A DNA stretch of 36,862 nucleotides from positions 1 through 36,862 of the forward strand of contig JAUZPZ010000003.1 of NCBI GenBank assembly GCA_030705675.1, in the 5' to 3' direction. The DNA is from Bacillota bacterium. GTDB taxonomy: Bacteria > Bacillota > Clostridia > RUG12999. Shown here one piece after another: positions 14,303 to 36,861 of this stretch; the stretch's first letter is position 1, and each line of letters begins with the position of its first letter. A model generated the notes under the pieces. The model was not told where the DNA came from. It did not search any database and worked only from the letters and a program-made list of their open reading frames with translations. A program made the position numbers and the translations under genes.

Positions 14303-14452
14303 TCTCTGTCTTGGTTACCTGAAAGATTCTCCGCATAGCTTGCGAATTGCTTCGTCGGTGCATAAATATGCTTTCCAGAGTTTCGTCGGAATCCAGTCCT
14401 TTTACCTGAGAGTTTCGCCCCTTCGGTGACTTAAAAAAGTTCTCTCCCGAAT
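14303..14452 (-). ncRNA. Tandem (two-aptamer) glycine riboswitch
   Basis: Minus strand: GGGAGAGaacttttttaagtCACCGAAGGGGCGAAACTCTCAGGTAAAAGGACTGGATTCCGACGAAACTCTGGAAAG...GCACCGACGAAGCAATTCGCAAGCT...GGAGAATCTTTCAGGTAACCAAGACAGAG. Both aptamers have the conserved CACCGA and CTCAGGT/TTCAGGT segments. Confidence 0.95.
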
Positions 14453-14584
14453 TCTTCATCCGATTATTTTATTTTTTCCGCCGCCATCTGTGCTTTTATA
14501 GATGGCACGATAAATGTACTTATGTATATATTATCACAAAAGCGTCTGTAATTCAAGACTTTCACACAAAATAATTTCTTATTT

Positions 14585-22069: not shown

Positions 22070-22402
22070 ACCAGCAAAATTGCAATAATATGGGGTGCTC
22101 GAACGAGCGCGCCATATCTATTTATTTTTATTAAATTTGAAAAAAGCGGGGCATATTTTCTATACGGGAAATACCTCGCTCATTTGTAAATATAAATTTA
22201 TCATATTTAATATTATATCTTCAATATATCTAAGTTTATTCCCTTTCTTTCAAAAATTCCGAATACATTCTATTAATTTTCCTGTATTTTATCTTCATAA
22301 AAATAAATTATTTTTTGAATATTAATTTTTAATCCGGCAATAATATGAGTGACCTCATAAATACACTTAAAAGGCTATTGCCTTTTAAACCCCCTTTTTC
22401 AA

Positions 22403-22443
22403 AAAAGGAACAGAGCAGTCCCCCTTCTCTGTTCCTTTTTTAT
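22403..22443. terminator. Bidirectional intrinsic terminator downstream of the LRR gene
   Basis: AAAAAAGGAACAGAG-cagtcccccttCTCTGTTCCTTTTTT. Confidence 0.85.
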
Positions 22444-22508
22444 TTGTTTAAGCAACACTGATCGTATCCTTTTTTTCAATATTAAAAATAAGCGGCGCGC
22501 CGTGGAAA

Positions 22509-22543
22509 GAAACTCCCATGGCAGATATTGCCATGGGAGTTTC
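22509..22543 (-). terminator. Hairpin terminator of the secreted glycosidase-like gene
   Basis: Perfect 15-bp stem GAAACTCCCATGGCA/TGCCATGGGAGTTTC followed on the minus strand by TTTCTTTCC. Confidence 0.65.
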
Positions 22544-22594
22544 TTGCAATTTCTATTTTTGGGCGAAATAATCAAAAGCAATATTGCTACTACA

Positions 22595-25500
22595 TTATCT
22601 TATTCCGTAAGCGTCCTGTGCCAGATCCTTAACCCAGGTATAATTGTAAACACTTGCCGGATTTTCTCCCACAAGGATAAGACCTGGATCAAGCCAATAA
22701 ACCTTTTTATCAAGAGCGACTGCAATATCACGCAAAGGCACAAATACCCTGCCGTTTATAAGTACGGCCCCTGATTCAAGTGCTGATTTCGTTCCGTTTA
22801 TGGTCATGTAGTTTTTCCCTACACCAATTTCAACTGTTTTGCTTCCTTTTTTTATAGAAGCGGTACTTGTGCTGTCATTCCACGAAACCCCGGCGTTAAA
22901 CGCCTCCGACAAAAAGCGTATGGGAATCATAGTTTTGTTATTTATAACTTGCGGTACAATTTGCGAATTTGCATCGACCTGCGTCTGTTTTCCCTTCACA
23001 AATGCCTCGCTGCTTCCCACAGCCATAATTACCGTTTGATTATACTCGTTCGCCTTTATCTGATTTACAGTTACAGGCTCATCCTGCGGAGTAGTATCAT
23101 TTGCTGTGGTTTCGGTGTAACGGTAAGCATATCTGCCTACTGGAGCCGTATCGCCGTTATTATAGAAGTCCATTATATCCCCGTCATTTTGGCAGTTATC
23201 ATTCCACTTAAACTCAATATCAACAAGCTTATTATCAAGCCCAAGATATTCTCTGGGAATTTGTATCATCATTTCGTTCCCGTTTACAGTATATGTAACT
23301 GCTCCCACGTTACTCCAGTTCCAGCCATTATCACTGTATTCAAGTGTAGCGCTCGTTGAAGAAGATGGATTTATACGGTTTACAACAAAGTCATAACCTT
23401 CCCAGCCCGTTGCATATGTACGGTCAGTATTTATATACAAGCGCATCCATCCCGGATCCGTATAAGGAGTAATGTTATTTGTGGTTTTTACATAGAAATA
23501 CAGATTATTCGCATCCCTTGCAACCTTTGAAAGAACTATATCATTTCTTCCTGTATTATTATTATAAAGCTGCTGTCTGCCCATAGAATAGTAGTTACGA
23601 ACTTCCGTGCCACCTTTATATCCGTAGAAGTTGGGACCTACATCACTCCACTGACTAAAGCCGTTCGATAAATTTATCGTCTTTTCCACACTTGCCACGG
23701 GCGTCTGATTTACACCTTTGAACTGACGTATATACTTTGTCATAAGATAATAATAGTTATCTTTAAAGTCCCCTTTTGTAGGCTCAATATCACGGCTGTA
23801 TTCGTCGCGGTACTGGTCTGGGAATGCACCTGCAATTCCTTGCCATGTGGTATAATGAGTTACTTGCCATTCGTTCCAGCCTGTTATAAATACCATCTTG
23901 GGGTTAAGCTCAAGAGCCCTTGACCACTGTTCCTGGAAATTATATCCATAATACTTTGAGTCATCACTGAGAAGGCTGAATCTGTCATTATAGGTAAAGC
24001 TTCTCCCGTACACCCCTTCGCCGTTCATAGCGGTAAGTCCATTGTCATTGCTGTTCTGTGCAACACCTACAGAGACGCATTCATAGTCAAATTTATTGTT
24101 TGTAAGCGGAGTAAATCCGTGCTGAGGATACACCTCAAGCCATGGCCACATTGGATTCCTTGTCGGGCCGTTTCTATACGACGCTTGAGCCGGACGGAAG
24201 GTAAAGAAGTTACTAATTGTGCTGTTGAGCGCGTTTATATCGCTATATCCCGTATCATTACCAAGTGTGTCAGGGCAGCCCATAATAACAGGCTTGCCGT
24301 CCCAGTAATACCATGTGTCACTGTAAAGACCCGTACCATACATCGACTGATAGATCCTTCTTAAATCCATATTTGTGGCATCATTTGCGGTAAACGGAAG
24401 TATAAATGACATCTGAGGAGTCTTTATGCCGCTTTGGCGCATAGAATGAAGTACCCCGCCCAGCGTCATATATCCACCGGTCCATGTAAGGGACGAGTTT
24501 GTTGCGTCAAAGAAAAGAGCATCCACGCCTGCCGCCGAGAGCAGTTCCATTTGTTTACGCATTACCCAAGCGTCAAGTCCGTGGTAATAGCCGTAAATAG
24601 ATTGGTTCCACATATGTATTCCGGTTCCCCAGCTACCTGCGCCGTTATCCCACGTCCAGGCATTTTTTATATCCGCTTCCGTACCTCCTGGATGTGTACG
24701 AAGGTATTCTTTAAGCGTTTCTTCATTATTAAATACACCTTGGGTGTCCAGTAGCGTGGGTTGAGCGTGCCACGTCCAATAAAACATTCCTACTTGCTTA
24801 TCTTCATCCTTTGCGCCTACGGTTTCATAGCCCGGAAGCTTCCTGCCCATCATATCCGTAGCAGACCATGTGTCGCTGTAATCCTGTGTAAGGCTGCTAT
24901 CCGCGACGGGGGTAAAATTTGTAAGCCTGTCGTTATAATATGAGGTTCCGACAGATGTTGTTGAAAACTGGAACCAGTCAACAGAATAGTAGCATCCGTC
25001 AAACACAAGGTAAACATCATGAGTGCCGGTTACATTTGCGCTTATATTGCACGGAATTGTAATCCATGTTGGATCCTGCGTTGTATATTCAAAATAGATC
25101 TCGGCAATTTTTGTACCTTGTTCAGGATCATCAAGCATTACATGGATTTCCCCTGTATCTCCGCTTGAGCACTTATAAGGGTTTACCCTCATATTTATTC
25201 CTTGAGGGGTTGTTGCTCCAAACGCCACATCCGCGTACGCGGTGGCCGTATTTGCGCTGCTAACATATATTGATGTGGTGTTATTAGTAATGTTTTGGCT
25301 TTTCTTATCATAGCTTTCAGCCTGAATAAGGCTGTAAGCGTCGCGTGGATTATGTACGACCCCGCTTACATTTAAAATTTCCATTGTTTTTATATTCGCC
25401 TCAAAACTTTGGTTGTCATATTCAGTGCCATTTATGTAAATATTGCTTGTCACGCCACTGTAAACACCATCAGTACTTTTCCAAACGCCCACCTGCTGTA

Positions 25501-31916: not shown

Positions 31917-31971
31917 TATAATTGCCCATGTGCGTTTCGGCTACATGCGGCTTAGCCGCAGGGCGAAAATT
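31917..31971. repeat. 55-bp direct repeat, copy 1
   Basis: TATAATTGCCCATGTGCGTTTCGGCTACATGCGGCTTAGCCGCAGGGCGAAAATT, identical to 32121-32175; internal hairpin TGCGGC-tta-GCCGCA. Confidence 0.95.
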
Positions 31972-32094: not shown

Positions 32095-32126
32095 ATTATA
32101 CCATACCTGCAAGGTTATGGTATAAT
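32095..32126. repeat. Inverted repeat ATTATACCATA...TATGGTATAAT
   Basis: Perfect 11-bp arms, 10-nt spacer, overlapping the start of direct-repeat copy 2. Confidence 0.85.
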
Positions 32127-32175
32127 TGCCCATGTGCGTTTCGGCTACATGCGGCTTAGCCGCAGGGCGAAAATT
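32121..32175. repeat. 55-bp direct repeat, copy 2
   Basis: Identical to 31917-31971. Confidence 0.95.
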
Positions 32176-33372: not shown

Positions 33373-35688
33373 TCAGCCTAAATAATCCACCATGCACATA
33401 TATAACTGCCTTGTGTCTACAGGCTTTTGAATGAATGCATTTATTCCGCAATCGGTAAATTTTTTATTATCGTATTCATCTGTACATGACATTACAGCCA
33501 ATACAGGCATCTTTTTCACATCGGTACGATCCATCAGCCGTATTTGTCTGGTTGCGGTATACCCGTCCATATCCGGCATATTTACATCAATAAAAATCAT
33601 ATCGAAATACCCTTCGATAGAATCCTTTACCAGCCTTACCGCCTCTGTACCGCTCCGGGCTGAAACCAATTCGGCACCCAGTTCCTCTATAATCGCGCAG
33701 AGAATATCAAGACACATTTCATCATGGCCAACCACAAGGATACGTTTTCCCGTAATATGAATATTTTTTCCGCTCTCGCGTATTTCTGTTTCCGTTTCGG
33801 TTATATCCTGTTTTGCCAGTTCTTCAAACTCCTTACGCGCAAGATCGAAACAGTGCAAAATCTTAGGATTAAAAATTCCGCACTGACCTCCCTTTATCAT
33901 TTCATATGCCGTTTCCGTCGAATATGCTTCCTTATAACAACGTTCACTTATCAACGCGTCATAAACATCCGCTATTGAAACTATTTGCGCCGAAATTGGT
34001 ATATCCTCGCATTTTAAACCATCCGGATACCCTTTTCCATCCCAGCGTTCATGATGATAACGCGTTATATCATAGCAGTATGACGCATATTCCACACCCT
34101 GCACATTTGAAATCATTTTTATAATTTCACTGCCTTTTTCAGAGTGCTCACGCATAATATCAAATTCCTCTCTCGTAAACCTGCCGGGTTTCAGCAGTAT
34201 ACTGTCCGGAATTGCTATTTTTCCAATATCATGCATTGCCGAGGCGGCAACTATAAGGTTTATTTTATCTTCATTAAGTCCGTATTTCGGATACTCACGC
34301 ATTACCTTCCTTGCAAGCAAGCATGTATATCCTTTGATGCGCTTAATGTGCTCTCCCGATTCCAGCGCGCGGTATTCAACCAACGTCGCGAGTACCTCTA
34401 TCAAGTCTTTATTCAGGTTTCGGAGCGCCAAAATATTATCTTTTTCGTTTTTAACACTCTGTATTGTCTTTTCACGTTTCACCTGATCCGTGACATCTCT
34501 TACTACCATAAGAACCCCGTTTTTTCCATAATCGTTCATCATAAAAACATATATTTCTACATATTCCTCTGTTCCGTCATCTTCTATAACGGGGCAGCTG
34601 AAAAGCTTTGTCTTCATTTCTCCCTTTTCGATATAAGCTTTCAGCTTTTCGGTGGAAATCTCCGAGCTTAAATGATCTATATACGGCGTCGGTATCTTGC
34701 CGCGCAGTCTGTCAAAAAATTTTGTATATTTCCCCGTAACCATGCCGACTTTCTCGTTTTCCGCATTAAACCGGTACATTTTGTATATATCCGCGTCCAG
34801 GTCAATGGAAACATACATTTTAAACATACGTCTGCCTATGTTAAGTATTTGCGCATTTGCACGGTCACGTTCCTTTTTTAACTCTCCGTCCCTGTCAATA
34901 CGCATAACAAAAACCAGTACATGTATATCGTTGTCCTTCTGTTCTTTGATAAACACCATTTTTGTCATTGTCCAATGGTGTTTATCGTCATTATATCTTT
35001 GCAGATGCTCCATCCATACCGATTCCGCACCTTCATTATATGCTTTTATCAAAGCGTCTCTTGAAAATTTATTTATAAAATCTTCATAAAAATCATTATG
35101 TATAGTTTCAGCTTCACATCTTATAAGCTCGTCAAAAGTTGTGTTTCTGTTAATGGAAATCAGCATATTTTCCCAATTTCCCACAACATGACACTCGTTT
35201 TGCGTAAGGTTTGATGAAAATATCATAACATATTTGTTTTCAACAAACTTTATAATATTTCCCATGTCCCGCTTTCTGTTTTCCGGAATTACTTCCTTTT
35301 CAAAGAGAAACACGGTTTCAGGATATTGCTCGAGTTTCAGAATTGACTGTTCCATCCACACTTTAGGATTGTTTTTAGCCCTGTATCTAAACTTTACCGG
35401 AGACATATTGTCTTTATCCATAACATATTTAAAAAGGTTTTCCGGCTTGCTTACCTCTGCTTTGTGAACATCCCGCGGATCTATTTTCTCTCTGCACATA
35501 TATTCATATGCAGAGTTAAAGTCCCCCTCAGGCAGTCCATCACAACTCTTGCCTTCATCCACGGCGACATTATAGCAGTATCCTAATTTTGTGTTTACAA
35601 CAGTAACGACATCATACGCAAGTTCAAAAGCTTCCGTAAATGCCTTTATTGTGTTTTCTATTTGTTTTCTTTTCTCTGCTGTATCCAT
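33373..35688 (-). CDS. Signalling protein: PAS-like sensor modules, HD-GYP phosphodiesterase-type domain and C-terminal response-regulator receiver
   Basis: VAASAMHDIGKIAIPDSILLKPGRFTREEFDIMREHSEKG...YHHERWDGKGYPDGL...SIADVYDALISERCYKEAYS; C-terminal ILVVGHDE...FIDVNMPDMDGY...QKPVD. Confidence 0.93.
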   Translation of the reverse strand: MDTAEKRKQIENTIKAFTEAFELAYDVVTVVNTKLGYCYNVAVDEGKSCDGLPEGDFNSAYEYMCREKIDPRDVHKAEVSKPENLFKYVMDKDNMSPVKFRYRAKNNPKVWMEQSILKLEQYPETVFLFEKEVIPENRKRDMGNIIKFVENKYVMIFSSNLTQNECHVVGNWENMLISINRNTTFDELIRCEAETIHNDFYEDFINKFSRDALIKAYNEGAESVWMEHLQRYNDDKHHWTMTKMVFIKEQKDNDIHVLVFVMRIDRDGELKKERDRANAQILNIGRRMFKMYVSIDLDADIYKMYRFNAENEKVGMVTGKYTKFFDRLRGKIPTPYIDHLSSEISTEKLKAYIEKGEMKTKLFSCPVIEDDGTEEYVEIYVFMMNDYGKNGVLMVVRDVTDQVKREKTIQSVKNEKDNILALRNLNKDLIEVLATLVEYRALESGEHIKRIKGYTCLLARKVMREYPKYGLNEDKINLIVAASAMHDIGKIAIPDSILLKPGRFTREEFDIMREHSEKGSEIIKMISNVQGVEYASYCYDITRYHHERWDGKGYPDGLKCEDIPISAQIVSIADVYDALISERCYKEAYSTETAYEMIKGGQCGIFNPKILHCFDLARKEFEELAKQDITETETEIRESGKNIHITGKRILVVGHDEMCLDILCAIIEELGAELVSARSGTEAVRLVKDSIEGYFDMIFIDVNMPDMDGYTATRQIRLMDRTDVKKMPVLAVMSCTDEYDNKKFTDCGINAFIQKPVDTRQLYMCMVDYLG

Positions 35689-35699
35689 TGTTCTTCATC

Positions 35700-35970
35700 C
35701 TGTTCTTCGGGCACACTTAACCTAAGCGGCAAGTGCGAATCTTATATTTTTATAAAGTGCCTGTAGTCAACCTTTAGTTTCCGAAGTTGCCCTTTACGCC
35801 GTTTGTTTCATACCAAGGCTATTTCCGACAGTATGTCGGAGTGTTGCCTTGTCCCCATATGCGGGATTTGTACATATAGATTATCTCCCGCGCAAGGTCT
35901 CCGGCTTTAGGACAGTTTTGTCATAAACCATTTGTACAATCAGGCTTTCTTTTCCGATTATACAAATCTT
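35700..35970 (-). ncRNA. Candidate structured RNA / long 5' leader of the HD-GYP gene (family unassigned)
   Basis: Minus-strand stems include TCCGACA/TGTCGGA, GCGGGA/TCCCGC nested in CCTTG/CAAGG, CGGAG/CTCCG, near-perfect 12-bp ATTTGTaCAATC/GATTATACAAAT, and CTTCGG/CCGAAG. No ORF explains it. Confidence 0.5.
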
Positions 35971-36082
35971 ATCAGAGCTTTATTAACATTACAATTTCGT
36001 TTTTAACCGTATTGGCAAAAAATGAGGCACAACCTCTTTATCCCACGCACAACATGTTATGCTATTAGGATCTCTAATTTAC

Positions 36083-36111
36083 AGTATATCATACTTTTTT
36101 ATCATTTTCAA
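36083..36111 (-). promoter_or_regulatory. Sigma-A type promoter for the HD-GYP leader
   Basis: Minus strand TTGAAA - 17 nt - TATACT. Confidence 0.7.
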
Positions 36112-36259: not shown

Positions 36260-36294
36260 TTTTATTGTATCGGACGAAAATTTTGTCTCAAGAA

Positions 36295-36510
36295 CAAAAA
36301 TGGAGCAAAGCGAACTTTGCTCCGACGTGTATTATATTGTGAATTTAAATGCCAGAGATATAACCGAACGTAGCTCGCAAAAGGTTGGTAGCGAACCAAA
36401 GTCGTTGCGAGGGCGTTTACAACCGAGCAGACGACGTGAGCGTGACCTTTTTTGAAAAAACCTTTTACCAAAAGGAGGAGCAAGGTAGCGGGCGGATGTT
36501 TTTGTGCAAA
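36295..36510. repeat. tRNA-adjacent tandem repeat unit A (216 bp)
   Basis: Starts CAAAAATGGAGCAAAGCGAACTTTGCTCCGACGTGT; nearly the same as unit B through ...CCTTTTACCAAAAGG...GGCGGATGTTTTTGTGCAAA. Confidence 0.9.
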
Positions 36511-36741
36511 CAAAAACGGAGCAAAGCGAACTTTGCTCCGACGTGTCTTTTATAGCGAATTTAAATGCCAGGGATATAACCGAACGTAGCTCGCAAAAGG
36601 TTGGTAGCGAACCAAAGTCGTTGCGAGGGCGTTTACAACCGAGCAGACGACGTGAGCGTGACCTTTTGCGAAAAGACCTTTTGCGAAAAAACCTTTTACC
36701 AAAAGGGGGAGCGAGGAAGTAGGCGGATGTTTTTGTGCAAA
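36511..36741. repeat. tRNA-adjacent tandem repeat unit B (231 bp)
   Basis: Same as unit A with an extra copy of a roughly 15-nt ACCTTTTGCGAAAAG-like subrepeat. Confidence 0.9.
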
Positions 36742-36774
36742 CAAAAACGGAGCAAAGCGAACTTTGCTCCGACG
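36742..36774 (-). terminator. Intrinsic terminator of tRNA-Leu, also the partial third repeat copy
   Basis: Minus strand: CGGAGCAAAG-TTCG-CTTTGCTCCG-TTTTTG, a UUCG tetraloop hairpin directly after the tRNA CCA end. Confidence 0.9.
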
Positions 36775-36861
36775 TGGTGCCGGTGGCCGGACTCGAACCG
36801 GCACGGTGTTGCCACCGGTGGATTTTGAGTCCACTACGTCTGCCAATTCCATCACACCGGC
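36775..36861 (-). tRNA. tRNA-Leu (anticodon CAA), CCA encoded
   Basis: Minus strand GCCGGTGTGATGGAATTGGCAGACGTAGTGGACTCAAAATCCACCGGTGGCAACACCGTGCCGGTTCGAGTCCGGCCACCGGCACCA. Acceptor GCCGGTG/CACCGGC, anticodon arm GTGGA-CTCAAAA-TCCAC, variable arm and T-loop TTCGAGT. Confidence 0.97.

Follow-up and report, generated by a model that had tools for sequence, protein, structure and literature searches.

Riboswitch classes normally occur in many species. The c-di-GMP-I and c-di-GMP-II riboswitches (RF01051, RF01786) are structured and lie ahead of genes for cyclic-dinucleotide turnover, and the leader described here resembles them in both respects. The raiA motif, or ModT RNA, is a large orphan structured RNA of the Bacillota that is broadly conserved (PMC11706538). 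The orphan candidate RNAs obtained by screening intergenic regions rest on comparative genomics and on many homologues (PMC2864571, PMC6429828, PMC11109978). Literature searches on HD-GYP genes and leader RNAs gave no title or abstract describing a leader such as the one reported here, which precedes an HD-GYP/REC gene on the minus strand of the window (the whole stretch of 36,862 nucleotides that was analysed).

Results

On the minus strand, the elements followed one another in the order tRNA-Leu (36861-36775), a 216-nt tandem repeat, a 14-bp stem, the promoter, the leader, AGGA and ATG. The promoter that the initial annotation had placed about 390 nt ahead of the HD-GYP/REC ATG (35688) was confirmed as a site that shuffles would seldom produce. 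It consists of TTGAAA-17-TATACT (36111-36083, minus strand) with a TG (TGa) before the -10, and thus belongs to the extended -10 type. Sites scoring at least 10/12 plus TGn were expected 0.01 times in the 562-nt region according to shuffles (P of at least one, 0.01), and the minus strand of the window contained only three in all. Transcription is expected to start near 36076. Promoter-like sites were also observed further down, at 35986-35957, within the leader, where a shorter transcript could arise, and at 35597-35569.

Upstream of the promoter, the 14-bp stem with its U-rich tail (36249-36219) is terminator-like on both strands and sets the leader apart from the upstream tRNA-Leu unit. The tandem repeat directly after tRNA-Leu (36293-36776; 2.2 copies, 90% match) carries terminator-like hairpins of 9-10 bp, and short pieces of it recur elsewhere in the genome, on two further contigs.

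The gene downstream of the leader (33373-35688, minus strand) encodes a 771-aa protein of unusual domain order, in which a large N-terminal region with no assigned domain is followed by the HD-GYP domain and, last, by a receiver domain at the C-terminus. Both the HDIGK and the HHERWDGKGYP motifs are present, and the protein is a probable signalling-molecule-degrading enzyme. In the leader itself, no stop-to-stop frame longer than 33 codons was found on the minus strand. A possible 18-codon upstream ORF, MYKSRIWGQGNTPTYCRK (35819-35875, minus strand), is preceded by GGGAG at 9 nt and may be due to chance. With no longer frame present and this lone ORF possible but unsupported, a peptide-coding explanation was rejected.

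The leader was folded with RNAfold, which gave a minimum free energy of -108.4 kcal/mol (z -4.11). Against global, 3-block and 6-block dinucleotide shuffles, the z values were -4.16, -4.56 and -4.47, respectively, and none of the 200 shuffles was as stable in any of the three schemes, including those in which composition was kept locally. The plus strand of the same region was ordinary (z -1.4 to -1.8 against shuffles), and the mean z of 387-nt windows taken along all 37 kb was -1.1 (sd 1.8). When the domains described below were folded alone, z was -5.1 for the 5' domain, -4.9 for the middle one and -2.2 for the 3' one. The leader fold is thus strand-specific and beyond chance, with two separately significant domains. 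The coding sequence of the HD-GYP gene also folds somewhat better than its shuffles (z about -3), so that part of the leader signal could be regional.

Most of the other extreme regions of the window were low on both strands, unlike the leader, as is to be expected of inverted repeats and terminators. One of these regions contains two identical 55-nt direct copies (31917-31971 and 32121-32175), intergenic and 204 nt apart, where folding is extreme for either strand (z -11 and -9); they look like a small hairpin repeat element. Another, the intergenic stretch 22351-22700, also had very low z values on both strands (-9.5 and -7.7).

The several nested stems noticed earlier were recovered as 5', middle and 3' domains, and most of the main helices were predicted with a mean pair probability of 0.85 to 0.99. 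In the 5' domain (35929-36078, minus strand), a closing helix (36078-36072/35977-35971) surrounds three hairpins and is followed by a predicted 14-bp hairpin (35967-35954/35943-35930). Inside this domain, a weak terminator-like hairpin (36036-36016, minus strand), GAGGUUGUGCCUC and then AUUUUUUG (U6), may act as an early attenuator. The middle domain (35788-35914, minus strand) is closed by the UGUCCU/AGGGCA and GCCG/CGGC helices, within which a GCGGGA/UCCCGC hairpin and an arm made of CAAGGC/GCCUUG plus UCCGACA/UGUCGGA are predicted. The 3' domain (35705-35786, minus strand) is closed by CUUCGG/CCGAAG (35786-35781/35710-35705, mean pair probability 0.97) around an inner hairpin (35737-35712, 0.91). 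This long-range pairing had been proposed in the initial annotation with a segment about 25 nt before the start codon; the helix itself was predicted, and its 3' strand is located 17-22 nt before the ATG. Several repeated segments of the leader have more than one possible partner. An exact 9-nt direct repeat, ATTTGTACA (35866-35874 and 35930-35938), which may be fortuitous, would allow the 14-bp hairpin to pair instead with the middle-domain loop.

The leader structure ends with the CUUCGG/CCGAAG helix at 35705, 3 nt before the start of the Shine-Dalgarno sequence at 35701. This AGGA (35698-35701, minus strand), 9 nt before the ATG, was predicted to be unpaired in the full fold (0.90), so that translation is permitted in the default state of the prediction. 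Between the leader and the HD-GYP gene there was no strong terminator, and the predicted fold of the leader contained no strong terminator/antiterminator or Shine-Dalgarno-sequestering alternative. Owing to this open Shine-Dalgarno sequence and to the lack of a strong terminator, no switch or off-state is visible in the predicted fold. UGUCCU (35914-35909) can nevertheless pair with AGGAUG (35701-35696) over the Shine-Dalgarno sequence, in a weak helix of 6 bp including two G-U pairs. Either this pairing or the early hairpin GAGGUUGUGCCUC, acting as an attenuator, could represent an off-state, both being weak candidates.

The leader is single-copy in its genome. Homologous upstream regions were sought, as the initial annotation had proposed, and no leader homologue was recovered from relatives, phages or plasmids. 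By DNA comparison, none was found in 99 relatives, and 371 class members gave only short chance pieces of 22-58 nt; the best of them (L135, 32 nt) was rejected, as the rest of the leader does not come after the match. The exact junction patterns of the leader were absent from the viral contigs searched. Three single-sequence covariance models, R1 (middle domain), R2 (middle plus 3' domains) and R3 (5' domain), were then applied to 60 relatives, to sets of 291 and 391 class members and to 379 genomes from the phylum. No homologue was obtained in these samples, the inspected matches lying mostly in coding sequence.

Eight covariance matches (L113, L114, L116, L119, L120, L121, L126 and L131; per-genome E values from 0.0006 to 0.23) were attributed to chance because most of them lie amid coding sequence (e.g. 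L114, L116 and L131) and because none of the inspected matches precedes a signalling gene whose leader is comparable; L113 adjoins unrelated perfect hairpins. Six more (L115, L117, L122, L124, L125 and L127) were judged on score and alignment only. A diverged homologue could have been missed, since models built from one sequence are weak and the whole-genome search scored only a few candidates in each genome. Loci around other HD-GYP genes contained no related RNA, most of these loci being centred on the HD-GYP domain, so that a true leader may lie beyond them. As a singleton without covariation, the leader is a good candidate for probing and not yet a new class.

Among the 60 relatives searched, the HD-GYP protein had no full-length orthologue, and its best match in the genus covered 219 aa at 49%. 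A neighbouring gene on the contig is 75-78% identical in the three congeners, which points to a contig native to this genus and makes contamination unlikely. With neither a leader homologue nor a full-length HD-GYP orthologue among the relatives searched, the gene and its leader, on a native contig, are both accessory or fast-evolving.

A leader without homologues, ahead of a gene without a full-length orthologue in the sampled relatives, would also be expected if this were intergenic DNA, newly acquired or in decay, whose good folding is due to chance, or if the leader structure were not under selection. Other stretches of the window likewise have low z values, probably from repeats and terminators. 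However, those extremes are mostly low on both strands, whereas the leader shows a strong strand asymmetry, a stability that none of the 200 shuffles equalled under any scheme, and two distinct domains that both come close to z -5. The absence of any RNA function is thus considered unlikely.

The leader was compared with Rfam 15, as had been suggested. No family matched at the gathering threshold, and matches up to E 10 were only implausible ones, with no riboswitch among them. This agrees with the initial annotation, which had matched the leader to none of the riboswitches considered. The c-di-GMP-I and c-di-GMP-II models were without a match in the leader at either threshold, and no group I or group II intron model appeared up to E 10, which set aside an intron. 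The leader stretch AAAGCCGGAGACCUUGC (35908-35892) shows some resemblance to the B12 box of the cobalamin riboswitch (RF00174), AGUCAGGAGACCUGCC; the cobalamin model gave no match at E <= 10, and no further part of the conserved core is evident. The window also contains a glycine riboswitch aptamer (14384-14459, minus strand, 58.4 bits, Rfam 15).

The suggestion that the leader could be a raiA motif was abandoned, as RF03072 was absent from the leader and, at E <= 1, from the whole genome. The same result bears on the proposal of an independent noncoding RNA, trans-acting or serving as a scaffold, which would precede an HD-GYP gene transcribed by read-through or from an inner promoter. The large size, the two compact domains, the dedicated promoter and the promoter-like sites further down would suit such an RNA. 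On the other hand, no terminator ends it ahead of the HD-GYP gene, no other large Rfam RNA was matched, and it is absent from the relatives searched, unlike the broadly conserved raiA/ModT RNA (PMC11706538). We consider an independent RNA very unlikely.

Another explanation is a new riboswitch class, in which the binding of a small molecule (a cyclic dinucleotide or another metabolite) would switch the expression of the HD-GYP phosphodiesterase. Its place, length and folding strength, the signalling enzyme encoded downstream, in which the HD-GYP motifs are intact, and the alternative pairings available, including UGUCCU/AGGAUG, are consistent with this proposal. Against it stand the lack of a riboswitch match in Rfam, the leader not being found in the other species sampled, whereas riboswitch classes are normally multi-species, the absence of a strong switching alternative, and the shortness of most alternative pairings, for which chance suffices. 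A riboswitch is quite unlikely on these grounds.

Discussion

The leader has its own promoter, is noncoding, is contiguous with the HD-GYP gene and, on the strand that is transcribed, folds more stably than expected by chance. Of the earlier reading, the long, strand-specific, structured HD-GYP leader unlike any known riboswitch was retained and the raiA idea was given up. With moderate confidence, we favour a lineage-restricted structured 5' leader that would act in cis on the translation or the stability of the HD-GYP mRNA. In the mechanism proposed, the HD-GYP/REC mRNA would be transcribed from its own promoter (36111-36083) with the structured leader at its 5' end; this leader would form two multi-helix domains, each stable by itself, followed by a terminal helix stopping 3 nt short of the ribosome binding site; and the folded RNA, or a bound factor or ligand, would set the access of the ribosome to the Shine-Dalgarno sequence beside the terminal helix. 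We infer that the leader regulates the HD-GYP gene in a translational mode.

It is distinctly improbable, though conceivable, that the leader represents an undescribed class of large (about 390 nt, two-domain) ligand- or protein-sensing leaders controlling an HD-GYP phosphodiesterase, found so far in a single genome. Were it ligand-sensing, it would constitute a new RNA-level control of a cyclic-dinucleotide phosphodiesterase, and its aptamer would be of very large size. As an orphan leader, too, it makes a clear and testable candidate, with strong, strand-specific folding and separable domains.

The leader and the raiA/ModT RNA (RF03072) are both large orphan structured RNAs; the leader, by contrast, was not found in relatives, and it runs on into a coding gene with no strong terminator in between. 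Like the orphan RNAs derived from intergenic screens, it is structured, intergenic and upstream of a gene; unlike them, it is represented by a single sequence.
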